Shown: positions 7,185 through 55,388 of the stretch, one piece after another
Layout of the letters: the number at the start of each line of letters is the position of its first letter
How positions within the stretch are numbered: the first letter of the stretch is position 1
Assembly (NCBI GenBank): GCA_949152475.1
Contig: OX424561.1
Span: forward strand, 4,402,001-4,466,000
Source of the DNA: Terebella lapidaria
Taxonomy: Eukaryota > Annelida > Polychaeta > Terebellida > Terebellidae
Length of the DNA stretch: 64,000 nt
Reading direction: 5' to 3'
Notes under the pieces: model-generated
Seen by the model: the letters and a program-made list of their open reading frames with translations, nothing else
The model's database searches: none
What the model was told of the DNA's origin: nothing
Position numbers and translations under genes: made by a program

Positions 7185-10100
7185 TAGTTTAAAAAAGTGA
7201 ATGGTAAATGTATCGATATTTGATAAGTATTGGGCACTTGTGTGACCTTGACCTTTGACCCAGGAGGACTGTTCTGGTCGCCTTGGTTACGAGGAGTTCA
7301 AGAAGCTGTGGTCCAACATCAGGCTGTGGAAGGTTTGTACTGGAGGGCTTCATTACCCCCACAGCTTAGCGCGGGGATACTCCAATACTTCTGAATCAGA
7401 TGTCATATGTGTTTATTTTATACATCACCAATCTAAACTACTACATGCTCCTTTTCGATCCTTTGGATCGTTCTGGATAGAAATTCGCGTACTGAAAGCA
7501 AGGCACGATCGTCTGCCTGCATGACTCGAGCGCTCCTTTTGCCGCCAAAACCGCCGCGCATATGCGCGCGCAGCTGCGCAGAAGCTTCACTTTTCTGTCC
7601 ACCGCCATTTTTGCTTGGCAGCTTTGGATTTTGGTTCCCGGTGAATTCGTAGAATTTAGTCTGCAAACTAGACTTTTGCGATATATTCTTACGGAATTTC
7701 ACCTGCCACGTTCATAGACATCGTTTTGTGTCTATTTGGATAAGTATCGGTCGATAGTTTGTTACTTGCTAGATCGTCAGCGATTTGTTTAGCCAGTTCA
7801 CCCTATTATCGTCCATCCGTCGTACTTGATAGTGTACTTGTTGTTTACATCTATCAATAGTTCTACGTTAATTTTCTACTGTATATATTGTGTATACGTA
7901 TACATACTGTAGTTTATATATTCGTAGTCCTCTTAGGGTTCTTTTTTTCAGCGCGGTCTCAGGTTTGCATATTTTGCCCGCCCTGTTACTGTGTGTGGTT
8001 AGTTCCCTTGTGTGATGATGACTTCACAATCCTCCCTTGGTACCGGTGCCATGGACGAACGTCCATGCCCGAAGTGTCTGGTCAATACCCTCCGAGGAGG
8101 GGAGAAACACAGTGTGTGTTTCGACTGTTTAGACCATGGCCCGGTATCTATGGAGGATTTGAGGTGTGATCTGTGTCGTTTCTGGCGTCCCTCTTCCTTC
8201 GTGCAGGCGACTGCAAAGTATTCCGAAGCCTCGTTGGCTCGTCGGGATGCTTTGAGGCTTGCGGAAGCTTCGGCTCCGCAAGTCCGCCAGTCGCCCATGG
8301 AGGTGGAGACTCCGCCTGTGACGGCACAGATTGCGTCCGGTGTTAGCCAGCCCCTGGGGCTAACACAGGACATGGTCAACGCGGCTGTGCAATCTTTCTT
8401 TGCACAGTCGTTATCGTCCCTTCAGGGTCCCCTCCTGCCGGGTCTCTCTTCCCTGCTTGGACAGGGAGTCCCGGCCGGTTCTTCGGCTGCCCCTTCGTCG
8501 CAGGGAGAGCTTGCTCCCCCTGCTGGCAAGAAGTCGAAATCTTCTAAGAAGAAGGTTTCAGTTCTTGCCAAGGCGAAAGCAGCCAAGGAACCGCACTCCA
8601 CCTTCGTCGTCCCTCAGTCGGGGCCGATCGAGGTGGAGGGGTCCGTAGTCTCTTCCCCGGGGCCTTCCAAGAAGAGGAAGCGTGCTTCCTCTAAGCGCCG
8701 TGGTGCTGAGACCACATCGATTTTCGATGTGGCTCAGGCTTCGTCCGACCTCTCGGTGGGCGACGATCAGGCTTCGGGCTTCGATCGGCGGGGCAGCTTG
8801 GATGGCTCATTCGGGTCCTCGGTCTCGAGGTTCGAGGGGGGAGAGTTCCCTTTGTTTGGGGGTGAGGCTCTCGATCGTTCGTGCGATCGGGAGTCTTCAC
8901 TTGGCGGTCGTGCTCCTGGTCCTCGATCAGGGCACGATCGGGCGGGTGGTGCTGGGGTCGTTCCTCAGGGCCACTCAAGTCCTGTGTACGCGGATGTAAG
9001 TCGCCGGACGGGCGCGATCGCTGAGCAGGCATTCCCTCGCCCGTCCTTTGATGTACCCTTGGGGTCATCGAGGTCTTCGATCGGACCTGTGAGGTCCAAC
9101 GATCGGGGGGGTCGAGTGGAAGCTGATCAGGAGTCGTCCTCCTCGGAGGATGAGACTTCCGATCAGGCCGGGGGTTCTAACTTCCGGTGGGCTTTGGAGT
9201 CGGTCGCAAGGCGAATGGACTTGCCGATCGATGCTCCAGGGCCCTCACGGGGGACCGGTAGGTTCGCGTCGGCGCCAGTTCGTCGGCCGATCCGGCTCCC
9301 TGTGGCTCCCGCGTTGGTCAAGTCCTTCGACAAGATCAACAAGGGAGTTACGGCTAAGAAGGATGTGGCTCGTACGGAGTCGACATTCCCGACTAGCCGT
9401 GTTCGACCTGAGTCGATCGACACCTATCGGACTGTAGAGTCCGAGGGTGGACATCAGACTTCCGTCCCGGTCGAAGACCCTAACCTTCACCTGCTTTCCC
9501 GGAAGCAGGGTACGATCTGGTCAGCTTATGTGAAAAAGGCTCGCCTTTCTCACTGGCAGACGCTGTCTCATCAATTGATGGGGCAGCTCTCGTTGACAGA
9601 TCACCTGACCACTTTGGTTCAGGAGTTTGTGGACGAGGCGGATCTGGAGGAGGGGAGTCGCGCCAACATACATGCAGCACTCGGCGTCTTGGCCGGAGTG
9701 GTCCATGCTGCTGAGCGTGACAGTGCGCACCTGGGCGCACAATTGGATCTCACCATGCGTGATGCTGATCTCCGTCTGCTTGACGTGTCCGCTACGGACG
9801 TCGCTGAGCTACGTGGGAGGCCGCTTTTTTCAGGCTATACCTACGCCAACCTCTCTCGATCGGATATTTCCGTCATGCGGGAACATCTCCGGGATGAGGC
9901 TATGGCCAAGGCTTTGCTTGGGAAGTCGGCGGGGTCTGGGACAGGCAAGAAGACCAAGGGTCAGAAGCCTGCCCAACCTCAGGCACCACATGCACCCGCT
10001 TCTACGCAGCCGCCCTTTCGTGGGGCGCAGCCTCCCCCTCCCCAGGGGGATGGCAAGCGCGGAGGCAAAGGGGGTGGACGCTTCAAGGGCAAAGGGAAAG

Positions 10101-13100
10101 CTTCTGGTAAGAAGTGACTCGTTGCGGGAAAGCGTAGGCTCTGTGGAAGGTTCAGTTCTTTCGGAATTCGATCTTCCACAACCTGGTCCAGTCGGGGGAC
10201 GCCTGGCTCAGTTCGTCCAGAACTGGAGCGATCTGGCGTCGTCAGACAATTCAGTCGTGGCATGGGTGAAGTTCGGTCTCACCTTCAGATGGGAGGCTGG
10301 AAAACCACCGATCAGACCCAAAGCGTGGTTCTTCCCTGTGCCCGGCGATCGGGAAAAGTTTCAGCTTCTGCAGCACGAGGTGCAGCAGTTGCTAGAGAAA
10401 CGTGCGATCGAGGTGGTCAAGGACGAGAGAGGATTCTATTCTCTCATCTTCCTAGTGCCGAAAAAGACAGGCGGGTGGCGTCCCGTTTTCGATCTGTCAA
10501 ACCTCAACAAATTCCTGATCATACCCAGGTTCAAGATGGAGTCGGCGCTTTCCGTCCAGAAAGCTCTGTCCAAGGGGAAGTGGGCAGTCAGTATCGACGT
10601 CAAAGACGCGTACTTACATGTGCCAATACACCCAGCCGATCGGCGATACCTCAAGTTCGCCTTCGAAGGTTCGGTGTATCAGTTCAGGGTACTTCCTTTT
10701 GGAGTAGCCACCGCCCCTTACGTGTTCACCCGTATCGTAAGGACGATGGCAGCCAGGTTTCGATCGGTTGGAATTCAATTCCACCATTATATCGACGATT
10801 GGTTAATCATAGCCGACTCCCCGTCTCAGGCTATAGAGCAATCCGGGTTCGTCCTCAGGTTGGCGACCAGCCTCGGCTGGATCCCCAATTGGGCGAAGTC
10901 TCATCTGTCCCCGACACAGAGGTTCGAGTATGTCGGGGTAGATTACGATCTAGAGCGAGGAGTAGCTCTTCCTCCGCGGAAGAGAGTTCTCAAGGCGATT
11001 GCGGCGATGGAGGTCGCGCTGACGCAGTCGTCGATCACAGCTCGACAGTTTCTGTCCATCATCGGTCTGTTGGCGTCGATGGAGAAACAGGTGCCGTTCG
11101 GCAGGTGCTTCCTCAGACCCATTCAATGGTGTCTAGCGTTGCAATGGCGGATACTCACCGATCGACTAGACCAAGTCGTATCGGTGGACGATCGTGCTCG
11201 GGAAGCAATGCATTGGTGGCGGGACCATCGGAATCTTTTCCGAGGGATGCCACTCGCGGAGTATCTGCCCGATCGGACCTTCTTCACCGATGCGTCAGAA
11301 TTGGCTTGGGGAGCTCATATGGACGAGCACGAACTCTCTGCTGTGTGGAACACGAGCGAGAGGGCGTTGCACATCAATGCCCTAGAGCTGCGAGCGGTGA
11401 GACGTGCGTTCGAGATCTGGGGGCCTCAGAGTCCCCCAGGGACGAAGTGGTTGGTCTTCACAGACAACAGCACAGTAGTGGCGCACATAAACAAACAAGG
11501 TGGAACTCGGTCGAGTCAGCTTTGTTTGGAGGCCGAGTGTCTGATCAGGTTTGCCTTCAAGTACCGTCTGTTTATCAGGGCGAGGCACCTGCCGGGTCAC
11601 AGGAATGTCCTAGCGGACGCTCTGTCGAGACCGGACAAGATCATAGGCACGGAGTGGAGTCTGCATCCGGGGGTGTTTCGGCGCGTTTGTCAGGCGTTCG
11701 GGACACCGAACATAGACCTGTTCGCAACCTCTCGGAATCACAAGCTCCCGGTCTACTTCTCACCTCTGCCAGAGAGCGAGGCACTGGCTGTGGACGCGAT
11801 GTCTCAGTCGTGGGACGGGATGTTCGGGTATGCGTACCCGCCAACTCGATTCCTAACAGAAGTGCTGCACAAAGTAGCCAGGTCTCAGTGCGAGATTCTG
11901 TTGGTGGCGCCATGCTGGCCGATGCAGGCGTGGTTCCCCCTGCTACTGTCCCTCCTGATCGATGTACCACGGGTTCTCCCGATCGAGGACAGGTTGCTGA
12001 AGCAACCGGGGCGGGATATATTTCACGATTCCGTCCACGTGCTCAAATTACACGTCTGGAGGCTATCGAGCGATCCTTCCAGGAGGCAGGATTTTCTCAG
12101 CAGGTGTCCGTACATCTCGCGAGAAAGAATAGGAGATCCTCCTCTAAAACGTATGAGGCTAAATGGAGAGTATTCGTACGTTGGTGTAACGGAAGGCGCA
12201 TTGATCCGCTCTCTGCCCCTCTGAATGCAGTGCTAGACTTTCTCTGCTATCTCTTTGATAGGCTTAATTTGAAGCCTACTACGATCGAGGGATACAGGTC
12301 CATGCTGGGCCCTGTATTCCGTGCTAGGGGGATCGATTTAACTAATAATCGTATCCTTGCTGATCTCTTGGCGTCCTTTAGGACGCAAAGGCCACGTGGA
12401 GTTCCTACTCTACCGGATTGGGACATGGCTTTCGTGCTATATTGTCTTACTAAAGCACCTTGGGAGCCTCTCAAGGAAGTTTCCTTGCAGAGGTTAACTC
12501 TTAAGACTTTCCTGCTAGTTATGCTAGCAAGTGGTCGAAGACGCTCAGATGTCGCGGCGATCGACGTATCGCGAGTCGCATTTGGCGCGGATGGGTCCGT
12601 TTCCTTATACCCAGTACGTGATTTTATGCCTAAAACACGTGCTGCAGTTGAGGGCGGGAAAGCGTTCTCCCCTATCGTAATTCCGTCACTGGGCGGTTAC
12701 GTAGGACGGAATGAGCCGGACGCTCTATTGTGTCCGGTAAGAGCGCTGAAAATCTACATCGATCGTACCAGATCGATCAGGAAAGATCGCAAGCGATTAT
12801 TTATTTCCTATCAGCCTAACAGGGCTACGGATATCTCCACAGCTACACTATCCCGATGGGTGAAGGTTGTAGTGAGGACTGTCTATGCGGAATCAGGTGC
12901 TGACGATCGAGTCACTTACAAAATATCGTCCCACCAAATCCGACACATCTCGATGTCTTTGGCGGCCAGGTCGAATATTCCGTTGGAATATATCGTGAGG
13001 GCTGGAATGTGGACTAATTCTACGACATTCATCGGGTTCTATCTGTCCAATGCTGCCGAACTTCAGGACCAGTCGTCCAGATTTAGACTGGGTCCGCTGG

Positions 13101-14580
13101 TCGTAGCGCAAGCTGTTGTTTGAACCAGCTGGACAGAAAAGTCTTGGTTTTAACGTGCACGTGTATATAAGCAACACTTTGTGTTTGTGTTTGAATTCTT
13201 TATGTTACGGTCTCAAGTAGAGTTCCGTTTTCCACCGATGGGTGAAGAAGAAATTTGTGCATGTCGGAGGCAAGCGATCGCACCGCTAGGTGAGTATCTT
13301 TATTATATTACTAAAGATATATCGAAAATGTAGCATTTTAGCGATTCGCTTGAAATCAAGACTATCGTCTGTTTTCATGACTCTCTAGCACTACTGCTCC
13401 ACCGCCTATCCTTTGATTCTAAGGAGCATGTAGTAGTTTAGATTGGTGATGTATAAAATAAACTTCCCAAATTTTAATTGTAAATTTGCCGTTTATTGTT
13501 ATTACTCACCTCTAAACTACTACAGTAAAGGCCCTCCCATCCATCCCCGCCAGTTGTGTGCTAGGGGCTTCCTTTTGTCGTTTTTTTGGACAGAAAAGTG
13601 AAGCTTCTGCGCAGCTGCGCGCGCATATGCGCGGCGGTTTTGGCGGCAAAAGGAGCGCTCGAGTCATGCAGGCAGACGATCGTGCCTTGCTTTCAGTACG
13701 CGAATTTCTATCCAGAACGATCCAAAGGATCGAAAAGGAGCATGTAGTAGTTTAGAGGTGAGTAATAACAATAAACGGCAAATTTACAATTAAAATTTGG
13801 GAAATTTGTGGTTTACTGTGAATTACACTTGACATTGATTTATTACAGACCGTCTTCAAGCAGCACGACAAGGACAAAAGCGGCTACTTCAACAGCTACG
13901 AGCTGAGACAGGCCTTCCATGCTGCTGGCGAGTTCTTGTTTCAATATATTCACCAAGTTTCTGGAATGATGCAAGATTTCTATAGTGCATTTTAACACAT
14001 GATCAGTATAATGATAGCTAAAACTGATGAGCACTTATGGGTTCCTGATATTAGTCATATGATTATGAAGTGACATGTATTTGATGGAAGTTTTGGATTT
14101 GTGTTGCAGGTTTCACCATCAGCAATGGAACTTTCAATGCCTTGGTGCAGCGTTACAGCAATCGTAAAGGCAACATTCACTTTGACGACTTTATTCACGT
14201 CATCGCCCGGATGAGCACCATGTTCGGTAAGTAAAGTTTTAACATGTATGGTATCTCTATCATAGCTTTGACATATACATACATCTCTCACCTTGAGATC
14301 TGAGTCTGAGTGCATTTGTTGGAAACTGTGATCAACAATTTCACAACTTGATAATGTCACTTTGTGAGTTCTGTACCTTGCTTCAGGTGTGTTCAGGGAG
14401 ATGCAACAGAGGTCTGGGAAGGCAGAGTTCAGTCTGGACCAGGTAACCACGACAAACTTCTCACAGTCGAGCCGAGTGAACGAATCAGCACTGCTGCTGT
14501 ATGTGTAATTGGGTCGTTGTACTCATCATGTCATGCATTCTCATTTTTTCCAGTTCATCCAGACAACGATGTACTCCTAA
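2932..14580 (+). CDS. Calpain, C-terminal penta-EF-hand part (5' exons not in window)
   Basis: This is the calcium-regulated cysteine protease calpain; only the end of the large subunit is present. Eight exons keep phase: 2932-2964, 3546-3681, 7044-7102, 7264-7332, 13849-13927, 14110-14226, 14387-14442 and 14554-14580 (TAA), giving 191 residues. The product starts with a linker (ITPDYKEPPRA) after domain III. A five-EF-hand domain follows. EF1 is non-canonical (SGGDMEIDAYELQ). EF2 has loop DEDCSGRLGYEE and EF3 has DKDKSGYFNSYE, both with the expected Ca ligands. The protein ends in FIQTTMYS, a typical calpain C-terminus. The catalytic papain-like core must lie to the left of the window. The intron after 13927 begins GCGAGT (GC-AG). 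The intron at 7333-13848 holds a whole DIRS retrotransposon in the same orientation. The paralog cannot be assigned. A 3' UTR poly(A) signal is likely at 15365. Confidence 0.9.
3014..3027 (+). promoter_or_regulatory. Candidate RFX X-box palindrome (intronic)
   Basis: GTCACCATGGCAAC fits the X-box consensus GTNRCC-N2-RGYAAC bound by RFX winged-helix factors. It lies in a calpain intron and is a motif match only. Confidence 0.3.
3819..3838 (+). repeat. Poly-C tract (20 nt)
   Basis: A pure run of 20 C in a calpain intron. Confidence 0.9.
4516..4609. mobile_element. Short MITE copy, TGACGTCACACTGGACG family
   Basis: About 94 bp starting TGACGTCACACTGGACG and ending CCTCCAGTATGGCGTC, so the two ends are imperfect inverted repeats. 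A clearly homologous copy lies at 16888-16983, next to the P element. It has no coding capacity. Confidence 0.65.
5997..6043 (+). promoter_or_regulatory. Two candidate RFX X-boxes in a 33-bp direct duplication
   Basis: GTAGCCATGGTAAC occurs twice, at 5997-6010 and 6030-6043, inside a tandem duplication that includes ATGCTGAGGG. Each matches GTNRCC-N2-RGYAAC. The position is intronic in calpain and any function is untested. Confidence 0.3.
7145..7184 (+). repeat. (AATC)n microsatellite
   Basis: About ten uninterrupted AATC units in the calpain intron just before the EF2 exon. Confidence 0.9.
7432..7601 (+). repeat. DIRS left inverted terminal repeat
   Basis: 170 bp, nearly identical to the reverse complement of 13587-13756. 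It contains a GC-rich palindromic stretch (CATATGCGCGCGCAGCTGCG) and an internal GATCCTTTGGATC hairpin. The outermost 21 bp (7411-7431) are unique to the left end. Confidence 0.9.
8012..10117 (+). CDS. DIRS ORF1, Gag-like protein with N-terminal Cys-rich motif (701 aa)
   Basis: This is the first frame of the DIRS element. In DIRS elements this position holds a putative structural or nucleic-acid-binding protein. The N-terminus (residues about 14-52) has paired CxxC motifs (CPKC, then CFDC and CDLC) that look like a zinc-binding module. Residues about 165-240 are Lys/Ser-rich with KKSKSSKKK and KKRKR, which are nuclear-localisation-like. The middle is Ser/Gly/Arg-rich and of low complexity. 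A helical, more conserved-looking region (about 480-640) follows, and a Gly/Lys/Pro-rich basic tail ends the protein. The upstream in-frame ATG triplet gives MMMTSQ; a later Met could also start translation. It overlaps the next frame by 68 nt. Confidence 0.8.
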   Translation: MMMTSQSSLGTGAMDERPCPKCLVNTLRGGEKHSVCFDCLDHGPVSMEDLRCDLCRFWRPSSFVQATAKYSEASLARRDALRLAEASAPQVRQSPMEVETPPVTAQIASGVSQPLGLTQDMVNAAVQSFFAQSLSSLQGPLLPGLSSLLGQGVPAGSSAAPSSQGELAPPAGKKSKSSKKKVSVLAKAKAAKEPHSTFVVPQSGPIEVEGSVVSSPGPSKKRKRASSKRRGAETTSIFDVAQASSDLSVGDDQASGFDRRGSLDGSFGSSVSRFEGGEFPLFGGEALDRSCDRESSLGGRAPGPRSGHDRAGGAGVVPQGHSSPVYADVSRRTGAIAEQAFPRPSFDVPLGSSRSSIGPVRSNDRGGRVEADQESSSSEDETSDQAGGSNFRWALESVARRMDLPIDAPGPSRGTGRFASAPVRRPIRLPVAPALVKSFDKINKGVTAKKDVARTESTFPTSRVRPESIDTYRTVESEGGHQTSVPVEDPNLHLLSRKQGTIWSAYVKKARLSHWQTLSHQLMGQLSLTDHLTTLVQEFVDEADLEEGSRANIHAALGVLAGVVHAAERDSAHLGAQLDLTMRDADLRLLDVSATDVAELRGRPLFSGYTYANLSRSDISVMREHLRDEAMAKALLGKSAGSGTGKKTKGQKPAQPQAPHAPASTQPPFRGAQPPPPQGDGKRGGKGGGRFKGKGKASGKK
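10050..12224 (+). CDS. DIRS reverse transcriptase-RNase H polyprotein (about 724 aa)
   Basis: It copies element RNA into DNA and degrades the RNA strand. The RT domain shows FDLSNLNKFL, SIDVKDAYLHVPI, LPFGVATAPYVFT and the catalytic YIDDW box. RNase H follows with FTDASELAWGA (D), ALELRAV (E), FTDNSTVV (D) and a late ADALSR segment. After it comes a region with DLFATSRNHKLP and LLVAPCWPMQAWFP, which is shared by DIRS-group elements and sometimes called methyltransferase-like. The frame is open from 9627, but the ATG at 10050 is the last one before the conserved region and overlaps the ORF1 end by 68 nt, so I chose it. Frameshifting from ORF1 is an alternative. It overlaps the recombinase frame by about 313 nt. 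Confidence 0.88.
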   Translation: MASAEAKGVDASRAKGKLLVRSDSLRESVGSVEGSVLSEFDLPQPGPVGGRLAQFVQNWSDLASSDNSVVAWVKFGLTFRWEAGKPPIRPKAWFFPVPGDREKFQLLQHEVQQLLEKRAIEVVKDERGFYSLIFLVPKKTGGWRPVFDLSNLNKFLIIPRFKMESALSVQKALSKGKWAVSIDVKDAYLHVPIHPADRRYLKFAFEGSVYQFRVLPFGVATAPYVFTRIVRTMAARFRSVGIQFHHYIDDWLIIADSPSQAIEQSGFVLRLATSLGWIPNWAKSHLSPTQRFEYVGVDYDLERGVALPPRKRVLKAIAAMEVALTQSSITARQFLSIIGLLASMEKQVPFGRCFLRPIQWCLALQWRILTDRLDQVVSVDDRAREAMHWWRDHRNLFRGMPLAEYLPDRTFFTDASELAWGAHMDEHELSAVWNTSERALHINALELRAVRRAFEIWGPQSPPGTKWLVFTDNSTVVAHINKQGGTRSSQLCLEAECLIRFAFKYRLFIRARHLPGHRNVLADALSRPDKIIGTEWSLHPGVFRRVCQAFGTPNIDLFATSRNHKLPVYFSPLPESEALAVDAMSQSWDGMFGYAYPPTRFLTEVLHKVARSQCEILLVAPCWPMQAWFPLLLSLLIDVPRVLPIEDRLLKQPGRDIFHDSVHVLKLHVWRLSSDPSRRQDFLSRCPYISRERIGDPPLKRMRLNGEYSYVGVTEGALIRSLPL
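11912..13123 (+). CDS. DIRS tyrosine recombinase (about 403 aa)
   Basis: It integrates the circular cDNA by site-specific recombination. The core shows the family residues in order: an N-terminal core-binding-like helical part (SKTYEAKWRVFVRWC), the catalytic Arg in SGRRRSDVAAIDV, the HxxR box in SSHQIRHISMS, the Trp/His position in AGMWTNSTTF, and the nucleophile Tyr in FIGFYLSN. The frame is open from 10262 but overlaps RT until 12224. The ATG at 11912 (MLADAG) is the nearest start upstream of the conserved domain. The frame is the same register as ORF1 and shifted relative to RT. It ends shortly before the internal complementary region. Confidence 0.88.
   Translation: MLADAGVVPPATVPPDRCTTGSPDRGQVAEATGAGYISRFRPRAQITRLEAIERSFQEAGFSQQVSVHLARKNRRSSSKTYEAKWRVFVRWCNGRRIDPLSAPLNAVLDFLCYLFDRLNLKPTTIEGYRSMLGPVFRARGIDLTNNRILADLLASFRTQRPRGVPTLPDWDMAFVLYCLTKAPWEPLKEVSLQRLTLKTFLLVMLASGRRRSDVAAIDVSRVAFGADGSVSLYPVRDFMPKTRAAVEGGKAFSPIVIPSLGGYVGRNEPDALLCPVRALKIYIDRTRSIRKDRKRLFISYQPNRATDISTATLSRWVKVVVRTVYAESGADDRVTYKISSHQIRHISMSLAARSNIPLEYIVRAGMWTNSTTFIGFYLSNAAELQDQSSRFRLGPLVVAQAVV
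13421..13524 (+). repeat. DIRS internal complementary region
   Basis: 13421-13463 is the reverse complement of 7411-7453 (left end). 13464-13524 is the reverse complement of 13743-13803 (right end). The segment is therefore an inverted copy of the right-left circle junction, which in the DIRS model templates completion and circularisation of the element. Confidence 0.9.
13587..13756 (+). repeat. DIRS right inverted terminal repeat
   Basis: Inverted counterpart of 7432-7601. It continues into a unique right tail (13757-13803) that ends before the calpain intron resumes. Confidence 0.9.
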
Positions 14581-16861: not shown

Positions 16862-16993
16862 CAACAATAGCTATAGATGCTTTGCTGTGACGTCACACTG
16901 GACGGCAAAATCATGTACAACGTCCAGTGTTTGTTGGTTCTATTGTGATTTCACTGGGAATTTTGCCGTCCAGTATGGCGTCATAAATAGAGA

Positions 16994-17001
16994 AGAAAAA
17001 C
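16994..17001 (+). repeat. 8-bp target-site duplication, left copy
   Basis: AGAAAAAC directly abuts the left terminal inverted repeat of the P element. The identical octamer follows the right end at 25832-25839. Confidence 0.85.
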
Positions 17002-17031
17002 CATAGACATATAACCCATGGACCGCCAACT
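17002..17031 (+). repeat. P element left terminal inverted repeat
   Basis: 30 bp, identical to the reverse complement of 25802-25831. Similarity stops just after ...GCCAACT. Confidence 0.92.
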
Positions 17032-17196
17032 CCAAAGTCTCGCACTGTTGTTCTTACCATGAAGCTTGTGTCCGCGAGACTTGAGCGAGAGGAGGTATGG
17101 TGAACTTCCGGTTTACTTGACCTTGTCAACAAGACTAGTTTCGAAATCGTTTTCACGCCAATGTTTTAAACCTGTGAACCTAATCAGATATTGGTG

Positions 17197-19371
17197 ATGG
17201 ATATCATCGAAGCATTAGAGGTAAATATGGATCCATGTTTATATGTTAAATAATGTGCACAGTATCATCGGCTCAGTCTCAACGCATTTCTATGTGTCGT
17301 GTGACCAGTCACTCAACTCACTAGTGTCAGTTTTATCTGGACTATACCGTGCTGTTTGTTTGCGAACCTGACAGTGACAGATATGACTGCGTAATCATTC
17401 ATATACCTGGTGAAGGTAGTTAATATGATGCTGGGTTTTTATTAAGTGATTAGGCCCTATTATTGGTGCATCATCATCATGACAATGACAATGTTGAAAC
17501 TTTCCAAATTTGACCTGGGTTATAATCGATATTTTGTCTTTCCAAATTAGACCTGCAGTACAGATTTGCTGGCCGAGTTCGAGGAAGTGGAAGTTCACCA
17601 TCTACCCGCCAAAACTGTCACTAAATCAGTGAGTTATAAAACACCCAATGTATTGAGACATATAACTTTAAAACAGGACCTTTTCCAACCGTTCACTGTT
17701 TATAAAGCTTTAGCATTGTTTACCTTTATGAACAGTCAACAGTCAGAAAATGACTGTATTTATTTAAGGCTAGAGCCATGTTACATAAAAATAAAATAGA
17801 TGAAATTGTTTATTGTTGTTTGTATTTTTCTATTCAGGTTCAGGAATGTGAAGAACAAGTGAAGAAGATTTTGATGGAGGTTGTAGATGGGTTCTGCTTC
17901 AAAGACCAGGCAAAGTTATTGTCTAGTGATCCAGCAAAGGGTATTTATAATTTTATGTACATATGTATATTTTGATGCAATAAGTGAAAATAAAATCAAT
18001 TTTATGAGAGCAGATGCTAGTACATTATAAAGGCCTAGCACATCCATTTTATTGATGATAATATCCAGAGAATACATGTGATATTGTGCTGTTGAGTTGA
18101 CAACAGAATACACTCACAAGAGCAACATTGAAGACTTGTAAACATGATATTTCAGTCACCTGGCAAACTTGTCGCCTCACACATCAAGAAATGTACTTCG
18201 AGTTAAAACTAATGATCTGCCTCATATTACACCAACATGTCAATGTGATGTGAATTTGTACACATGAGCTTATGACAGTACATGTGAAAATACCAATATG
18301 AGAGCTATCATGCCTTTCATTGAACAATTCAGAACTCGAAAATGTAGCACGCTGCAGTTATAGTTATCTACTAATTCACAATAAGTCCACATATCATAAT
18401 CCACAACATATATTTACACACACAAAAGCATAAATTGTTGATTACACTGCTATCGTTTTCTACCATTTTTGACAATAAGCAGACATACTCATTAATTATC
18501 ACTCTCATACAATGTACATACATACATTCACATTCCGACAGCCTAAATATATATTGTGTAAAACCATGAACATATTGACTACTATTTTTTAGTTTTGTAT
18601 ATTTTTTTATTTGCTTGACTTTCAGTTTCACAATTCAGCACTTTGCTGAAGGCCCAGCTGGAAAGCTGCGTGGTGATGAAGTCACAAGTGAAGGGGGTGA
18701 ACAGGGAGGCCTCACAGACCCAGTTCTGCAAGTTGATGGCAAGTGGTATTCCTGAACTGACTGCTGTGTCTGGAGATCACAGGCTCACGACATGGATCTC
18801 CATGAGTGTGTTCGAGGACTTTTGTCGCACACCATCTGACTCATCGCTCTCTCCCTCTCCACCTGACTCATCCAGTGTCACTCTCTCCACGGAGGAGGCA
18901 GATGTCTCACATTACATCGGAGGTTTCGTGTGCTGCAAATTGAAAAAGCGAAGTAAATGTCAAAGTTACACAGATGCTATACAGACATTGATCAGTGACC
19001 AGCAGCCAGATCCGGAAACTCTTATAGCCGCCAAGTCAAGGGGAAGATTGACAAATCTGACTAAGGATGGACAGTGTATTTTTGTTGAATTAGAAACTTT
19101 GTTTCAAGTCATATTTCCGCCGTCAGTGCACCATGTACAGGTTACAGAGTACAAAATTGCATGCATTAACAACATCATCGTTCAAGATTGTTTTCACAGT
19201 GCCACAGATCACATCAGCAGCGAATCCAAGGATGAAGTTCTATCTGATATCATTTTGCTATATTTCAAAGTCAGAGTCAACCAAAAATGCAAAAAAATAA
19301 TAGAGAATATAAGGAGCAAGAAGCGTACATCTAAACAGGAGAAGGCCTTGCGTAGCAAGTTGGCGAAATAA
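17197..19371 (+). CDS. Uncharacterised second protein of the P element (316 aa)
   Basis: Function unknown. Four exons keep phase: 17197-17220 (MDIIEALE), 17551-17628, 17838-17940 and 18626-19371 (TAA). The last, longest exon carries most of the protein. The N-terminal part is acidic and helical (FEEVEVHHLP; VQECEEQVKKIL), a Ser/Pro-rich linker follows (about residues 135-160), and then HYIGGFVCCKLKKRSKC ... LIAAKSRGRLTN. That last stretch resembles the 'YIAGYV...K..C' module often found near the end of THAP9/P-like transposases. The tail is Lys/Arg-rich. No THAP fingers or catalytic acidic triad are seen. The ATG lies 166 bp inside the left inverted repeat. The first exon is short, so the start is the least certain part. 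It may be an accessory factor, a regulator or a detached transposase domain. Confidence 0.72.
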
Positions 19372-19494
19372 ACAGTTGCCACTTTCAAATTGTTGTTTGT
19401 TTTGAAATTGTCATATCAATCATATTAAATATGTGTATGGATTGGTAAGTTATCGTGTACCAGTAAATATATTTGATTACACGTACTAGTAAAT

Positions 19495-19500
19495 TTTATT
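19495..19500 (-). terminator. Candidate poly(A) signal of the P transposase
   Basis: TTTATT on +, so AATAAA on -, about 76 nt beyond the transposase stop codon. Confidence 0.5.
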
Positions 19501-19562
19501 CTGTGGTAATTTGGTTTCTGGATTCTAAAAGATACATATATGCCAAACCAATTTTGATGCAC

Positions 19563-19568
19563 AATAAA
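19563..19568 (+). terminator. Candidate poly(A) signal of the P element + gene
   Basis: AATAAA about 190 nt after the + gene stop and only 8 nt short of the end of the opposite-strand transposase CDS. The two transcripts would therefore overlap at their 3' ends. Confidence 0.5.
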
Positions 19569-19575
19569 AATAAAT

Positions 19576-22500
19576 TCATACATATTTGACTACCTTCGAG
19601 TGTCGTCTGATCTTTGGCAAGGGTGTGTTATCGACTATGACCTTATTGGCAGAACGCTTGCCTCGTATATTGCCTTTGGGCATGATGGAAAGTGCCAAGG
19701 TCCTCTGTAGACGAAGTTTGTTTTCTTGATAGCTGTGGAATTATTTTATTTTGTTTCAAATACACGTGTTTATTGCAAAAACAACACATCTGATTCAAAC
19801 ATAAACCATCTGAATTTGTTTATTTCACGATAATATTCACCCGAAAGTCCACAAAGTTGGGTTTTCTGCACGAACGCCGAGACTGCGATGCCGACCAAAA
19901 TGTTCCTCCAGTGGATCCTGGCAGAACCGATTTGTGAGAACCACTTTCACTCCAGATTGAAGCAAGTACCGGGTCGCTTCAATAACTGATTTCACTGTTG
20001 AAAGACAAACATATATGTGAGAGGACATCTTCAAAGTTTGGATTTTGGACACATTTTTTTTCAAAACTAGAATACAGCTTACACAAATGCAAGTATTGAT
20101 CTCAATTCATAGGCTACAATTGCAAGTGCACAATGTTACCAAACATAACTCACATGCAATGTGTGTGTTTCTGGAAACTACAATATTTTACTGCTAGGTT
20201 TGTCGTTAAACTAGATGCTCTTCGGTTGCCGAAGACCGAGTGGGTGTATCCCTTTATTGCCCCATCATCTCTGTCACCCGAAATACGTTCATACAGACAA
20301 AATGTAAAGTCCAGTGCATCAATGTTATATACATATACTTTTCACCTGTAGTTTTCAGGCCTTCATAAGTCTGATCAGTTAGGAACATTTTCTTCCTTTC
20401 TGCTGAAGTGAATCCCTCTCTTGCGTCGGTAGCTGCCCTCCAGTTTTCCAGGTACCCCAGGAAGTCCTCGGCCAGAAACTACCACACAGACAATTACATG
20501 CATTACGCTTTTGGAGGAAATACATTTCCAGTGAATGATAGCAGCAAATACATCATAAACATTGATTTCAAGGTTCATCAAGTGCCTTTCTATGAATACT
20601 TACCCTGAACCTGTCGTCATCAGTACTGGTGTATGGAGCCAAATATTTATTGTTCTTCCTGGTTCCCTCTTGCATTGACCTGCAATTTCAGAAATTCATA
20701 CAATGTTCATGACAAAAAAACAGGCCAAAAACCATAATCCATGTCAAAGTTGACACTGAAACAAAAATCACCTTGTGTTGAGACAGTCAAAAAACTTGTC
20801 CATCAGCAAAATAAACTTTGAAGTTTCTTTGCAATCATCTCCTCCAAAGGTTCGCATCACTGATCCTACAGAATTGCTCAGGACCTTAAAGAAAATTCTC
20901 AATTGAGCAGTGTGTACTTGTGTATTTGATTGATTTTTTAAACAATAAATAACTGTCATCTATTTTAGTGACAGCTATATATATATATATATTCGTCAAT
21001 TAGGCCTACATAAAAAAGTTAATGAATATATTCACTAGGCTACCTGCGCAGCAAGGTATACCCTCATGACAGACTGTGGGGTTAGGTACACATGTTCTGC
21101 AGTCAATTTTGTCCGGGTTATCTCCCTTGCGGCGTCTTGTTGATAAAGACGAACAACATGGGTCCACAGGATGTCTTGGTCGTTGTTCTATAAATAAATA
21201 AAAACCATACATTCAATGATAAATCAGTAGAATTAGGCCGGTACCAAAGAATATGACCAAACAGACTGAATCTGTTAATATTGTATTTCAAAACTATTTT
21301 ACACACCCATAAGCGCTTAGTGTTTTTTCCGAAACCGGAACTGGACATATTGTTCCTCACTGTTTTCACCAAATGAGGAGCATCGCTGAAGAAGAAGATA
21401 TTTCTTTCAGGGTCGAACAAGTTTGGCGTCTTGTATCCACTGACTCCATGTAGACGAATCAGTCGCTGGTTACAGCTAGCCTTGTCACTTGTTGAGGCAA
21501 TGACCTAAATAATCAACAAAACAAATTTGGTGTATTATTTTAACTAAATAGTTAACATTTTCTTGACATAACATGAAGAACGCATAGATGTAGTCTGTTT
21601 ATTGCCAGGAAAACTAACCTTCAAATCACAGACGCATTCTAGCAATCCAATGGCCCGCCACAATAATGTGAACATCTCGTCCGCTGTTGCAGTCCTTGTG
21701 GGAAAGTATCCAAGACTAGATTTGATGTTGGACGTAATCCCAACTGCCATGAATACCAGTGCATGAGTTGCTAGGTGGCCATCATTGGAAGACTTGTCAT
21801 TCCAACAAGAACTGTCGATGAATCCCACAAGTTCGCCAGTTGTGCGATCGTAGACGAGGTCAGATTTTATGGAAATCTCGTCGTGCATCAAGCACACCCA
21901 TCGTTCCTCTGGATTAAGGTTCTCGGTCATCTTCTTCAACTCCAGGAAAACTTCAAGTTGGAAACCAGATGACGGGTGAAGGACATTGGTATAATCACGA
22001 AGGGTTGATTCAGTGGGCAGACGAATGACGCCTACTTGACGCAGAGATCTATAGGTGGACGGACTCTGGCTGTGCAGAAGGATGGCAAACCGCACCATCA
22101 TCGGATGCCATCTCATACCTCCCGCTTTTCTTGAGAAAGCCTTCTTCTGTTCACTCCAGAACATCTCGATGAAAGAGTCCTTTTCAGTTTCTTCCATGAT
22201 AGCACTTAATCTGTTGTGGGCAGTTTCAGATACTTCAACATGTTCCTGTTTCAGCTGAGAGCGAACCTCTTGGAGCTGCTTCACAGCACGTGCTTTCTCC
22301 AGCCTCTCAAGCTTCAAGGCATTAGCGATGCGAGTCCTCGACACCCTAGACAGCGGCGCATACGTCCTTAGGTCCTTCGCTTCTGAGGAAACACGTCGCA
22401 GATGTTTCTTCAAGACAAGTGTCTTACAGTAGGCACACTCAGAACAGAGTTCTCCAGTCTCTATACTCTCCAGACACGAGTGGGAGCGAATCGTGGTAGA

Positions 22501-25185
22501 GCACGTCATGCCGTTGGTACCTTTCTGATATGTGACATGAAGGAAGTACTTGGGCGAGTCAGCCTGACTGTTGTCCTCTGAACTGCTCCTCTGTGGTGGT
22601 GGTAGTTCTGCATACCGCTGCAGCTTGGGATCAGTGATTCCGGGACAGGGTATAAGCACAGGGACCTTCGGTTCATCGATGGTCTCCGGGACATGACGAT
22701 CAACCTGTGACGAAGTAGGAAGTAAAAAAAAAAACTCCGTTCAGAAAAAAATACAAAATTCATCATGTCATGTCACCAATGTGCTTTCGTTATTATCAAC
22801 TGCTGACGACACTGATGAGAAAATCCTCTTGGATTATACGCGCACATGTATTTTTGGAAAGATGAAAAAAATTGTGTAATGGCATTAAACAGCATTTGAT
22901 CAATCACCTAAATGGAAACAAAATCACTGAAAGATAAACATCAACAAATTTTGTGGAACCTGTAACTCTGTAACTGAAATAAGTTAGGCGTTCTATAAGT
23001 TTAAGGACAAATGAAGTCCCCAACATTTTGAAAATAAAACAAACTTATGCATAGCACTCTAGGTGCTGTAGCTAACTGGACACAACAGACCAATACATGT
23101 AAATTTCATATCAGTAGACAATAAGGTAAAATCATAGTCTTCATTTAACAAAGTTATATCCATGTGCACACGCAACTCCTACAAAGGTACTAGATACCAA
23201 GGCCTAAAGATGCCTTGGAGGCATTACGATGTAGAGACTAATCTATAACATTTATAATAATATCATGAATATGCTTGCCACGAACGGCATCCGTTTTTGA
23301 GATACCTAACAAACGAACAAACTCAAAACACAATTTCGGGTCCGAGAAATTCGGGACCGTTTCCGAGATATCAACAAAAACCAAAAAACTTCCAGGTCAA
23401 ATCCAAGTTCATCCTCAATACCCAGAAGACATGTTTGTCAAGGGCGACGAGTTCGAAAATAACGTCCGTTTCGCTGCACCATTTCCGAGATACTGGTATT
23501 GACGAAAATGAAAAATGCTGACTCAGCGAAAAAAATTATGCTGGGCTCACTCTAGCTGATCGCACTGTAGCATTTTGCTAATCAAAGGCACAAAATGCTA
23601 AACAGAAATAGCTTGCTATCGCACAATTTACTGAAGTGTAATTGGCATTGTCATAAAGAATTATACTTTTTCATAATAATTAATAATCTGAGTCTTGCAT
23701 TTCTTTCAATCATCATAATCATTGAATTACTTTCGTCAGTTATTGAATAGTTCTTCCTACGATGTGGTATATACATGCAGGAATTTTTGCTAAAAGAAAT
23801 TATAAAATGCTAAAAGAAATTTGAAGTCTTTAGCAGTTTTTGAGAAGCAAAATTTGTCACTAGAGTGAGCCCAGTTATGGTCAAGGTCAAAGGTCATCCA
23901 TAATACCCCTTAGACAAGTTTGTCTATAGCGACGAGTCTGAACATAAAGTTCATTTCGCTCTACGACGCACTGTTTATGAGATATGCAGGAAACATCAAA
24001 GATAACTTGGCGAAAACTCTCCCGACCTCTAGGTCGAAGGTCGTTTGATGGATTGATCTCAAAATCAATAGGGTTCTTTCCCAATATTCAATAGGGTTCT
24101 TCCCAGTTGGTATATGAACCTCCTCAAGCTCCATTTCATCCTCATGGACCTCACGAAGCTCGGACCCAGCCGAAGAACAATAGGGTCCTTCCACATAATA
24201 TGTAAACATTTGGCGAAGATACATGGAGGCAAACTAAAGTTATCGGTCGGAAACCAAAACGGCAGGAAAAAAAATTCTGCTAAAACCATAAAGGCATTTC
24301 TTCCGAATGCCTCAAAAAACTAAACTGACAATGAATCATCGGAACATAGATCGGGTAAACTGAAAACGTTCTGCCTATTTTTATCGTGCATGTCATGTAC
24401 ATGTCTTAAATGTACAGGGAAATTCACTGAACAGATTTTGAGCGACATTACTTTTGAACCAAAGTTCCATTAGGGTAAAAAAAGGAAGACACAGGGGCTT
24501 CGCAAACACAGACACATGTGTCAATCCATCCCAATAGCTCTAAAGTTTTCAGCAACATCAACCAACCAACAGCCAACATCAAACTTCCAATTCTTTATAT
24601 AGTCTCACAGGAGGCTTCCTGGGTGGTGGTTTTGGTGTTTCAATAGATTTCTTTTCCATAAATCTAGTTGGTAGGCTACCAACAATCAACTGCCTGCGTC
24701 CACTTGGTTCTATTTTTACATTTGAACATTTTTAGGTAAATATGTAGCTTCAAGTTCATGAGATATATCTTCAAAACGCAGTGAATTTTCAATGAGCGCC
24801 ATGCTTGAAATTTGATTCCACTATTTGGATACCCATACTGTCTGGCAGGATACTTACGAACAAGAAAACAAGAATCTTCAAAATGGCGTGAGCAAATGAA
24901 AGCTGATCCTGGCTTGAACCCTTTGTCACATCTCGCCACTTTCGCCACCATGGCAGTATGCCAGTCACGATCAGTCACTGTAGATGAAGAAAAAAATAAT
25001 ATAAAATAGGCATTTACAAGCATTACATCTTGGAACAAATTTTGATTTATGAATGAGTTCCACTTCACAGTTCATCTCAAACATTTGAAAATGTACTAAC
25101 GTTTGTTTGGAATGCGATGAAATGACAGTCCACGACATCGCTTTTGTGTTGCACTGCAGCCGACCATGCAACAAAACTTAGTCAT
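19576..25185 (-). CDS. THAP domain P-element transposase (796 aa, 11 exons)
   Basis: It binds the element ends and catalyses excision and insertion. Exons on -: 25101-25185, 24858-24977, 24585-24709, 21619-22704, 21307-21504, 21044-21187, 20772-20884, 20604-20679, 20346-20478, 19841-19994 and 19576-19732. They total 2391 nt with all phases compatible. The N-terminal C2CH THAP finger shows [24 protein letters not shown] and the SLPTRF box, and is followed by a Pro-rich linker. A coiled-coil-like basic stretch precedes the split RNase H-fold domain, with candidate acidic residues in [37 protein letters not shown] and [11 protein letters not shown]. The C-terminus has [11 protein letters not shown]. 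The exon 3 donor (GTTTGA) is weak and is the least certain junction. Domain order and length fit an intact P-type enzyme. GTP dependence is known for Drosophila P but not shown here. Confidence 0.9.
23190..24312 (-). mobile_element. Helitron-like non-autonomous repeat, family A, copy in P transposase intron
   Basis: Reading on -, it starts with GAGGCATTCGG...GAAATGCC, a terminal hairpin. It contains the CTCGGAAACGG and TGACC-type repeat motifs in low copy, and ends AAGGC-ATCTTTAG-GCCTT followed by CTAG. The same ends bound the longer copy at 31522-35620. It has no coding capacity. Confidence 0.65.
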
Positions 25186-25801
25186 GTCTCGGACTTGCAG
25201 AATCCCCACACCTTATGAGGAAAAGATATAGTTTTAAAGAATATTTGTCATTGGTTTTATACATTACACACTCATCACGATATTAACCCTCAATAAATAG
25301 GGACAAATGGTTCAACATCAAGTGTCAGCCCAAACCATGCTCAAGATCCACAACCAATTTAGGGGCAACCCTTGGGCTGATATTTATCTTTTATTCCAGC
25401 ATGTGAGCCTGAATTGACAATAATCATGAATCTAAGGTCATCAGCTGGTCATACATTTAATATATAGAGCCGATGTGAAATGCCGTGCCACTGAGGTACG
25501 ACCGTGCGACACTGCGAGTACTTACCATGAGTCTAGACCACACGATGATCTAGTCGGGCGAGTTGAATTGATTTAAAAAAAAAAAAGGTTACTAGTGTAT
25601 GAAGAAGTTTTCGAATATACGCTAGACTATTTTAGAATTTGTTATTCACTACTTACCAGGATCTTCTATCGTTTAAACTGAAGAAATCTCTGTACACTAC
25701 ACTGTGTTGTGTCCGTTGACAAACTGTCAAAACAAGCGGAAGTTAGCGATACCTCTTCCCCCTCGCGCATGCGCGCCGCAAGCTAACCCCGCGAAATTCA
25801 A

Positions 25802-25831
25802 AGTTGGCGGTCCATGGGTTATATGTCTATG
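25802..25831 (-). repeat. P element right terminal inverted repeat
   Basis: 30 bp, reverse complement of 17002-17031. It is followed by the target duplication AGAAAAAC. Confidence 0.92.
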
Positions 25832-25839
25832 AGAAAAAC
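25832..25839 (+). repeat. 8-bp target-site duplication, right copy
   Basis: AGAAAAAC, identical to 16994-17001. Confidence 0.85.
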
Positions 25840-33000: not shown

Positions 33001-36000
33001 CTTATTATCGATTTTACAGCTTAGGAATCAATTGTGGACATATAGGAAATGATATATGCTGAATATTCTCGTGACCTTGAATTTGACCTCTGACCTCATT
33101 TCTAAGGTCCAAGGACAAACTGGCTCATATCTTGCTCCTCTATTGACTGTATGGCTTGGGAATCAATTGTGGACATGATATACATGATATAGAAAATGAT
33201 ATACACTGAATATTTTGATGACCTTGAATTTGACCTTTGCCCCTTCATTTTCAAGGCTACAGCATAAAATTGCTAATCTCTCTCTGATTATTGAACTTAC
33301 AGCTTAGCAATCAACTGTGGACATGATATATGCTTAATGTTATATATGCTGAATATTCTCTTGACCTTGAATTCAACCAGTGACCTGGCTAATACCTAAA
33401 ATATTAAACATTGTCCGGTAACCTATCTTTGGCCCTTGGCCTAATTTTTTTTTGATCCGGCTCCGAGGTCCGTGAGGTCCGTGAGGATGAAATCGAGGAA
33501 CTTGGTTTCCGGACGATAACTCAAAAAATATTCAGGCAATAGTTGCAGAATTTTGCACGGAGGTTTATATATCACCAGGGAAGAACCCTATTGATTTTGG
33601 GATCGATACCTCAAACGACCTTTGACCTAGAGGTCGAAATAATTTTTTGCTGAGTCATCCTTGAGGCATCATGCATATCTCAGAAACGGTACATCGTAGA
33701 GCGAAACGGACGTTATTTTCGGACTCGTCGCCCTAGACAAACATGTCTAAAGGGTATTATGGATGAACTTTGACCTTGACCTTGAATTTTTTTGCCGAGT
33801 CGGCATTTTTCGTTTTCGTCGATATCTCGGAAACGGTGCGTCGTAGAGCGAAACGGACGTTATTTTCGGACTCGTCGCCCTAGACAAACATGTCTAAGGG
33901 GTATTATGGATGAACTTTGACCTTGACCCGAAATTTTTTTGCCGAGTCGGCATTTTTCGTTTTCGTCGATATCTCGGAAACGGTGCGTCGTAGAGCGAAA
34001 CGGACGTTATTTTCGGACTCGTCGCCCTAGACAAACATGTTTAAGGGGTATTATTGATGAACTTTGACCTTGACCCGAAATTTTTTTGCCGAGTCGGCAT
34101 TTTTCGTTTTCGTCGATATCTCGGAAATGGTGCGTCGTAGAGCGAAATGGGCGTTATTTTCGGACTCGTCGCCCTAGACAAAAATGTCTAAGGGGTATTA
34201 TTGATGAACTTTGACCTTGACCCGAAAATTTTTTGCCGAGTCGGCATTTTTCGTTTTCGTCGATATCTCGGAAACGGTGCGTCGTAGAGCGAAACGGACG
34301 TTATTTTCGGACTCGTCGTCCTAGACAAACATGTCTAAGGGGTATTATGGATGAACTTTGACCTTGACCCGAAAATTTTTTGCCGAGTCGGCAACCAGGG
34401 AAGAACCCTATTGATTTTGGGATCGATACCTCAAACGACCTTTGACCTAGAGGTCGAAATAATTTTTTGCTGAGTCATGCATATCTCAGAAACGGTACAT
34501 CGTAGAGCGAAACGGACGTTATTTTCGGACTCGTCGCCCTAGACAAACATGTCTAAAGGGTATTATGGATGAACTTTGACCTTGACCTTGAATTTTTTTG
34601 CCGAGTCGGCATTTTTCGTTTTCGTCGATATCTCGGAAACGGTGCGTCGTAGAGCGAAACGGACGTTATTTTCGGACTCGTCGCCCTAGACAAACATGTC
34701 TAAGGGGTATTATGGATGAACTTTGACCTTGACCCGAAATTTTTTTGCCGAGTCGGCATTTTTCGTTTTCGTCGATATCTCGGAAACGGTGCGTCGTAGA
34801 GCCAAACGGACGTTATTTTCGGACTCGTCGCCCTAGACAAACATGTTTAAGGGGTATTATTGATGAACTTTGACCTTGACCCGAAATTTTTTTGCCGAGT
34901 CGGCATTTTTCGTTTTCGTCGATATCTCGGAAACGGTGCGTCGTAGAGCGAAACGGACGTTATTTTCGGACTCGTCGTCCTAGACAAACATGTCTAAGGG
35001 GTATTATGGATGAACTTTGACCTTGACCCGAAAATTTTTTGCCGAGTCGGCATTTTTCGTTTTCGTCGATATCTCGGAAACGGTGCGTCGTAGAGCGAAA
35101 CGGACGTTATTTTCGGAGTCGTCGTCCTAGACAAAAATGTCTAAGGGGTATTATTGATGAAGTTTGACCTTGACCCCAAATTTTTTTGCCGAGTCGGCAT
35201 TTTTCGTTTTCGTCGATATCTCGGAAACGATGAGTCGCAGAGCGAAACGGACGTCATTTTTGGACTCGGCGATCTAGACAAACATGTCTAAGGAGTATTA
35301 TGGATGAACTTTGACCTTGACCTTAAATTTTTTACCGAGTCTGCATTTTTCGTTTTCGTCGATATCTCAGAAACGGTGCATTGTACAGCGAAACGGACGT
35401 TGTTTTCGGAGTGGTGGCTCTAGACAAACATGTCTAAGGGGTATTACTGATGAACTTTGACCTTGACCTGAAACGTTTTTTTGCTGAGTCGACATTTTTC
35501 ATTTTCATCCATATCTAGGAAACGATGTGTCGTAGAGCCCATGGCAAACATGTTTTAAATATTACAAATTAGTCCTAACACCGAAATGCCTCCAAGGCAT
35601 CTTTAGGCCTTGACGTCTAGTTAAGTACTGCAGTATCTGATCCAAGCAGGTGCCCAGTTCACAGTTTTGTACTGGTTTGCAAAGTTTTCTGGCGGAGATT
35701 TCAATCCCGTCATGCCATCTCATTAATTATTCATCAGCACAAGCCGTTGTTGCAGACACGATTAGCCAATGAGCAGCCGAGTAATGGGCCCGGGTGCAAA
35801 AACATTTGCTGGACGTGCCACCCTTCTCCAAACAATCAGGAACGTGTGATTCAGCAATCAACATGATCAAAGGCAGTGTTAGGGGAAGGATGGTGGGGGG
35901 GGGGGGGGGGTTTAAGGATTGTTTTTTTTTTGTCAGTCTCTGATGGCTCTCAATTCGAGAAGCACATGGGTAATTTGCCGATTGCGATCAGATTGTTAGA

Positions 36001-41434: not shown

Positions 41435-41861
41435 TTTGTAAGTTATTCGGCCGCTTAGAAAGCTGAGGAAATTCAAACCAAAACATACATGATGAAAATT
41501 ATGTCAACGTCAATTTGTACATTCTGGGTCCAGCAAAATATCAGAACAGCGAATTGCTCAAGATTCCAGCTTGGATAGCTACCAAGTAGATCTATGCTGT
41601 CGGACATATGTTATTGTTTATCAATGCTGGAGGTGGGATATTGATTCGCGCCTGCGTGCACCTGCTGCCTGTTGCATTGTGGGATACACTATTAGCTTGG
41701 AGCCTGTAATATTTTGATCAGATCAGGGGAAGGCAGACAGGGGACACGGAAATTATAGACAGACTGATACAGTGTTTGTCCACTTCTGGCAGGATTTTCA
41801 GCAGAATTGGAGCCGTGAATCTCTCAACCATGGTTTTGTGACTATAACGACGGCAGAAAAC
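41435..41861. promoter_or_regulatory. Divergent promoter region between ISCA2 and PKC
   Basis: 427 bp separate the two start codons, so transcription start sites for both genes probably lie here. Part of it may be PKC 5' UTR, and a spliced upstream UTR exon is possible. GCATTGTGGGATA at about 41675 resembles known bidirectional-promoter motifs only loosely. No TATA box is evident. Confidence 0.45.

Positions 41862-55388
<13,527 letters not shown>

Follow-up and report, generated by a model that had tools for sequence, protein, structure and literature searches.

Few eukaryotic transposons have been studied as much as P elements, and what the C-terminal domain (CTD) of their transposase does is known mainly from one structure. 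In the Drosophila P element (6p5a, 6pe2), one gene encodes one polypeptide in which a THAP domain, a helix-turn-helix (HTH), a DDE RNase H domain with a GTP-binding insertion and the CTD are fused. THAP9 and zebrafish P-like elements have a P-type transposase with the same domains, and the excerpts of PMC10983969 used here describe the CTD as part of the same protein. Here we describe an 8,830-bp element at 17002..25831 of a 64,000-nt stretch of the annelid Terebella lapidaria (GCA_949152475.1, contig OX424561.1, positions 4,402,001 to 4,466,000; this whole stretch is called the window). It shares with Drosophila P all the domains just listed, including the CTD fold, as well as terminal inverted repeats (TIRs) of about 30 bp and 8-bp target duplications. 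Unlike the elements above, however, it appears to encode the CTD in a gene of its own, which lies on the other strand and adds an N-terminal extension. We think it likely (probability roughly 0.8) that the element, a member of the P superfamily, was recently active and that its transposase has two subunits, the + strand protein acting in trans as the CTD subunit.

In RAG-like (RAG1L/RAG2L) transposons, RAG1L belongs to another transposase lineage and RAG2L is not known to be a split-off transposase domain, and their likeness to the window element is one of layout only. The second protein of PIF/Harbinger elements is an unrelated Myb-like protein, not a transposase domain. As described in excerpts of PMC7204232 and PMC5543537, respectively, RAG-like transposons have two convergent genes and a two-part recombinase, and PIF/Harbinger elements are two-frame DNA transposons. 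No two-gene P element was found in the portions of the open-access PMC literature covered; Repbase was outside our scope, and we do not claim priority.

The ends of the element are as follows:
16994..17001, no strand: left 8-bp target site duplication, AGAAAAAC
17002..17031, + strand: left TIR, 30/30 complementary to the right TIR
25802..25831, - strand: right TIR, 30/30 complementary to the left TIR
25832..25839, no strand: right 8-bp target site duplication, AGAAAAAC

A nested pair elsewhere in the genome (G000:C13:28786749-28804416), with one copy inside another in the same orientation at about element position 3783, has an inner stretch of 8,838 bp, i.e., 8,830 + 8. Kolobok and ISL2EU are other transposons bearing THAP, and we assign the element to the P superfamily rather than to these because of its target duplication and its Pfam domains. 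Adjoining its left side (16888-16983) is a separate pair of 24-nt inverted repeats (92%) with 48 nt between them, which may be a short non-autonomous element.

The - gene (25185-19576) encodes the putative catalytic protein. Splice sites and homology guided the manual exon models of both genes, and for this gene the models give 11 exons, all GT-AG and in phase, and a predicted protein of 788 aa with its stop at 19576:
25101..25185, - strand: exon 1 (start, THAP; hand model and Pfam)
24858..24977, - strand: exon 2 (THAP; hand model and Pfam)
24609..24709, - strand: exon 3 (end of THAP domain; hand model and Pfam)
21619..22704, - strand: exon 4 (HTH, RNaseH_N, first catalytic residue D377)
21307..21504, - strand: exon 5 (second catalytic residue D471)
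21044..21187, - strand: exon 6 (hand model)
20772..20884, - strand: exon 7 (GTP-contact residues F610, D611, N614)
20604..20679, - strand: exon 8 (hand model)
20346..20478, - strand: exon 9 (hand model)
19841..19994, - strand: exon 10 (third catalytic residue E715)
19576..19732, - strand: exon 11 (stop)

THAP (PF05485) scores 35.9 bits against a cut-off of 23.9, and the TNP-like RNaseH_N and GBD families (PF21787, PF21788) also exceed their cut-offs. HTH (PF12017) scores 21.8 bits on the whole protein, just under its cut-off of 23, and 23.1 on the exon alone, while RNaseH_C is weak (15.3 bits vs a cut-off of 24). Alignment with the Drosophila P transposase places D377, D471 and E715 at the fly catalytic positions and recovers the GTP-binding insertion, where seven of the eight GTP-contact residues (residue list from an excerpt of PMC7776569) are identical and the eighth is K to R.

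Beyond E715 this protein has 73 residues and then ends, while the fly protein continues for 220 more at the equivalent point (its end taken as residue 751, i.e., the last modelled residue, 734, plus 17 unmodelled). Homologues behave similarly: 120 of the 210 found were listed, and in the 115 of these where the catalytic motif could be placed, it lies 14-94 residues (median 72) from the C-terminus. Two + protein profiles gave no convincing match to the 120 listed homologues (best E 0.55 and 0.99), whose source names include Priapulus, Biomphalaria, Littorina, Batillaria, Holothuria, Stylophora and Hydra. Judged from its sequence, the - protein is a P-type transposase that lacks the C-terminal domain. 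The element is thus not a Drosophila-type single-gene P element, as its RNase H polypeptide has no CTD and a second conserved gene lies on the + strand.

That second gene (17197-19371) has four exons, all GT-AG and in phase, with 317 codons including the stop (predicted 316 aa), and it converges tail to tail with the transposase gene:
17197..17220, + strand: exon 1, with start codon (hand model; equivalent exon in a 47%-identical relative)
17551..17628, + strand: exon 2 (hand model; equivalent in the same relative)
17838..17940, + strand: exon 3 (hand model; equivalent in the same relative)
18626..19371, + strand: exon 4, stop at 19369-19371 (hand model; 26 database homologues)
18877..19320, + strand: part of exon 4 aligning with the Drosophila P transposase CTD (model residues 87-234 on 6p5a_B 617-734)
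19495..19500, - strand: AATAAA hexamer past the - gene stop
19563..19574, + strand: two AATAAA hexamers past the + gene stop

The stop codons are 204 bp apart, and the AATAAA hexamers for both genes lie inside that gap. The + exon model has independent support from elsewhere in the same genome, where a + gene whose product is 47% identical shows the same four-exon structure and phases (24/84/103/731 nt vs 24/78/103/746 nt in the window). An earlier, sequence-only reading of this DNA had described an intact P-superfamily element with convergent genes, perfect 30-bp inverted repeats, an 8-bp target duplication, an unbroken 11-exon THAP/P transposase on the - strand, a four-exon + gene with its own start near the opposite end, and all 15 exons in phase, and this anatomy holds.

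The nature of the + protein is less plain from direct searches. A Pfam search named no family, a viral fold library gave no convincing match, and a precomputed PF22824 label on several homologues was used for no conclusion. Direct sequence comparison matches the fly CTD weakly (E 0.71 and 0.2), and the matches to PF12596 (87kDa transposase) are weak too, with E 0.19 for P0018 and 0.066 for the fused CTD of L040, a relative introduced below. Helical folds match easily, so the + protein might be an unrelated accessory whose CTD likeness is a chance match of small helical folds. However, models of two distant + family members pick the same PDB chain (6p5a_B), with a gap to the next entry, and the modelled protein has the 6p5a_B fold and is all helical.

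Further evidence on this point comes from relatives in which the domains are joined. Some of the transposase places that have no + partner form a group of distant matches with long frames, and three of these were fetched:
G000:C1:78280500-78286500: L039, single-gene P-like family, fused CTD
C1:22601500-22607500: L040, single-gene P-like family, CTD downstream on the same strand
C7:9133000-9140000: L041, single-gene P-like family, CTD downstream on the same strand

These share with the window element the P-type RNase H and GTP domains and a CTD homologous to the + protein, but the CTD lies downstream on the same strand, and in L039 within the same open frame, instead of in an opposite-strand gene. 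L039 is one 761-aa open frame in which HTH, RNaseH_N, GBD and RNaseH_C all exceed their cut-offs, and its transposase is nearer to Drosophila P than the window's is (135 vs 63 bits). The + profile matches the stretch after these domains (E 5.9e-6) and the corresponding downstream stretches of L040 (E 4.9e-5) and L041 (E 1e-7); rescaled to a search of 177,635 sequences, the three values become 0.0088, 0.073 and 0.00014. Both controls were clean: the reversed L039-L041 sequences gave no match at E up to 100, and the best score among 1,163 frames of the window minus the element was E 1.2. L040 is also flanked by inverted repeats of 47 bp (96%) that stand about 5.7 kb apart, and its duplication, read by eye, is 7 bp long (CTTGTAT).

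Profile-profile comparison of the + family with the three fused CTDs aligns 147 columns collinearly (E 2.2e-8, probability 95%). This result largely refutes a chance fold match, which we now regard as very unlikely. Since the fused form is found in the same genome, we consider the argument closed: on the evidence of sequences and models, the + protein is a homologue of the transposase's own C-terminal domain, the one missing from the - product. Besides this domain it has about 150 N-terminal residues that match no fold clearly, and a basic C-terminal end (14 K/R and 2 D/E among the last 36 residues). The sequence-only reading had proposed a P subclade with an accessory protein; a second protein is indeed carried, and by many families, but it is not an unrelated accessory.

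In any single element, a second frame could stem from one capture of a host gene fragment, or the two genes could be neighbours by chance. The sequence-only reading had raised the first of these possibilities itself, along with full-length copies lacking the + gene, and had suggested looking for both genes together at many loci. We did so in the window's own assembly (761.6 Mb), so co-occurrence rests on one genome. Searching with + exon 4 gave 125 rows, nine of them full-length at 97-100% identity and the others down to 23%. Among the 30 best + loci (with 1.5-kb flanks), 28 have transposase C-terminal exons downstream on the opposite strand and none has them on the same strand; the two misses are a partial match (L027) and a locus with an internal stop (L029).

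The main transposase exon search gave 122 rows (113 of 553 candidates scored), and 76 of 121 merged + places have a transposase place within 12 kb, all 76 opposite and downstream. In 200 random shifts, the mean was 0.12 such pairs and about 0.1 of each other kind. When a second transposase query, taken from the L034 element, is added (150 of its 337 candidates were scored, and 150 of 158 matches entered the pairing), 105 of the 121 places have a convergent partner within 12 kb, whereas the shifts gave 0.095. A same-strand place is present as well in four of the 105, which are two neighbouring inverted-copy pairs on C2 and C8, and none of the 121 has a same-strand partner alone. No convergent partner was found for 16 places within 12 kb (13 within 20 kb), two of which, L025 and L028, had shown transposase tails in the 30-locus check. 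Elsewhere, viral contig scans found no relatives with context, and genome contig scans gave no + protein match and, for the transposase, one contaminant contig (L038), which has no + profile match (best E 0.12).

Within the window's own family, the + gene is missing from none of the copies found. A left-end search (25 of 25 candidates scored, comprising ten left ends, right ends and a related family) found ten left ends, one in two pieces, and the + gene is present at the same 10 of 10 places; in the C6 copy it is broken in two, beside a transposase with stops. Taken with the 28 of 30 loci and the 105 convergent pairs, host-gene capture is rejected within this genome, and we give a single capture or chance adjacency almost no credence. 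Five of the copies are exactly 8,830 bp, the C15 copy is 8,494 bp, those on C8 and C6 are longer, and that on C382 is interrupted. L002-L004 are 100% identical to the window copy over 3,750 bp, and L006 differs by one base. The same search saw no short internally deleted derivatives genome-wide, in contrast to Drosophila P, which has them. Because copies are identical in length and some are 100% identical over the 3,750 bp compared, this is likely a living element, and the family would fit recent transposition. Ratios of nonsynonymous to synonymous substitution (15 usable pairs, 0.41-0.96) were not used as evidence; eight of these pairs are L010 against identical copies, at 0.41.

Five further families (L031, L032, L033, L034 and L037) also keep both genes, with + proteins 55, 47, 40, 27 and 29% identical to the window's (tblastn), and in all five the transposase is on the strand opposite the + gene. 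TIRs beginning CATAGAC, as in the window, are found in L032 (32/32, duplication ACATAAAC), L034 (30/30) and L037 (94% over 35). The stretches read for L031 and L033 show no clear TIR; a match to the left end of the window element sits 515 bp ahead of the stretch read for L031. All four + exons could be placed in L032, with the window's phases, and exons 2-4 in the L031 family. By eye, the target duplication looks 7 bp long in L034 and L037, the more distant families (GTTTATG, CGTACAC) versus 8 bp in the window family and L032. That many different families share the layout makes the second gene look like a standard functional component of these elements.

Two roles can be considered for the + protein. 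A CTD held by position, not by a linker, can be supplied in trans, and we therefore propose a hetero-oligomeric transpososome. The - gene would provide the catalytic subunit (THAP, HTH and DDE RNase H with GTP-binding insertion), which stops where the Drosophila protein enters its CTD, and the + gene would provide the CTD as a separate protein with a strongly basic tail. The + protein may dock in trans on the catalytic subunit, perhaps using its N-terminal part as the docking module, and would then sit in the place of the CTD, with one subunit's RNase H domain on one side and another subunit's GTP domain on the other, grip transposon-end and target DNA, and be needed for transposition. Alternatively, the + protein could be a CTD relative that regulates, repressing or activating the catalytic protein with a timing of its own. 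A short Drosophila P protein represses transposition, the separate start and convergent layout would permit independent timing and antisense control, and the extra N-terminal module has no clear fold match. However, the catalytic partner lacks a CTD with which the + protein could compete, and nearly general pairing fits a required part better than an optional regulator, so we consider a purely regulatory role unlikely.

A broader reading, on which we are evenly divided, is that two deep architectures exist within the P superfamily. In one the CTD is fused (Drosophila P, THAP9); in the other, which would be split and old, convergent genes for a catalytic and a CTD subunit form an obligate two-protein recombinase laid out like RAG1/RAG2. 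A transposase tree of 30 rows, including 20 listed CTD-less transposases, has a 100/100 branch separating these 20 and the split families from Drosophila P and L039-L041. In it, P0027 (Priapulus), P0030 (Biomphalaria) and P0054 (Littorina) group with the L034/L037 families (97/94), not with the window's. The split form would be old because a priapulid and two snail transposases thus join one split set of this genome and not the other, and because CTD-less P transposases occur in cnidarians and an echinoderm. The tree would be compatible with either fission or fusion: it is unrooted, its fly branch has the very great length of 4.81, and two of its fused rows are less than half filled.

A natural element with its CTD as a separate protein would make the role of that domain directly testable, as it can be added or omitted. 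Proteins that lack a CTD and are annotated in invertebrates as "P transposases" or "THAP9" may be only one part of an enzyme whose other part has gone unannotated. The element would also add a second case of an animal transposon whose recombinase has two subunits encoded by convergent genes, for comparison with the RAG1/RAG2 ancestor.

Some minor features of the window can be added. A 147-bp tandem satellite occurs at 33675-35538; by eye, its unit resembles part of the third intron of the transposase gene, at about 23300-24030 inside the element, and intron sequence of the L031-family + gene. At 8003-13120, three overlapping long + frames with a reverse transcriptase (PF00078) and a weak tyrosine-recombinase match (PF00589) look like a DIRS-type retroelement. 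Frames at 41718-47080 have C2 and C1 domains, as in protein kinase C, and a 33-bp tandem repeat array of 18 copies.
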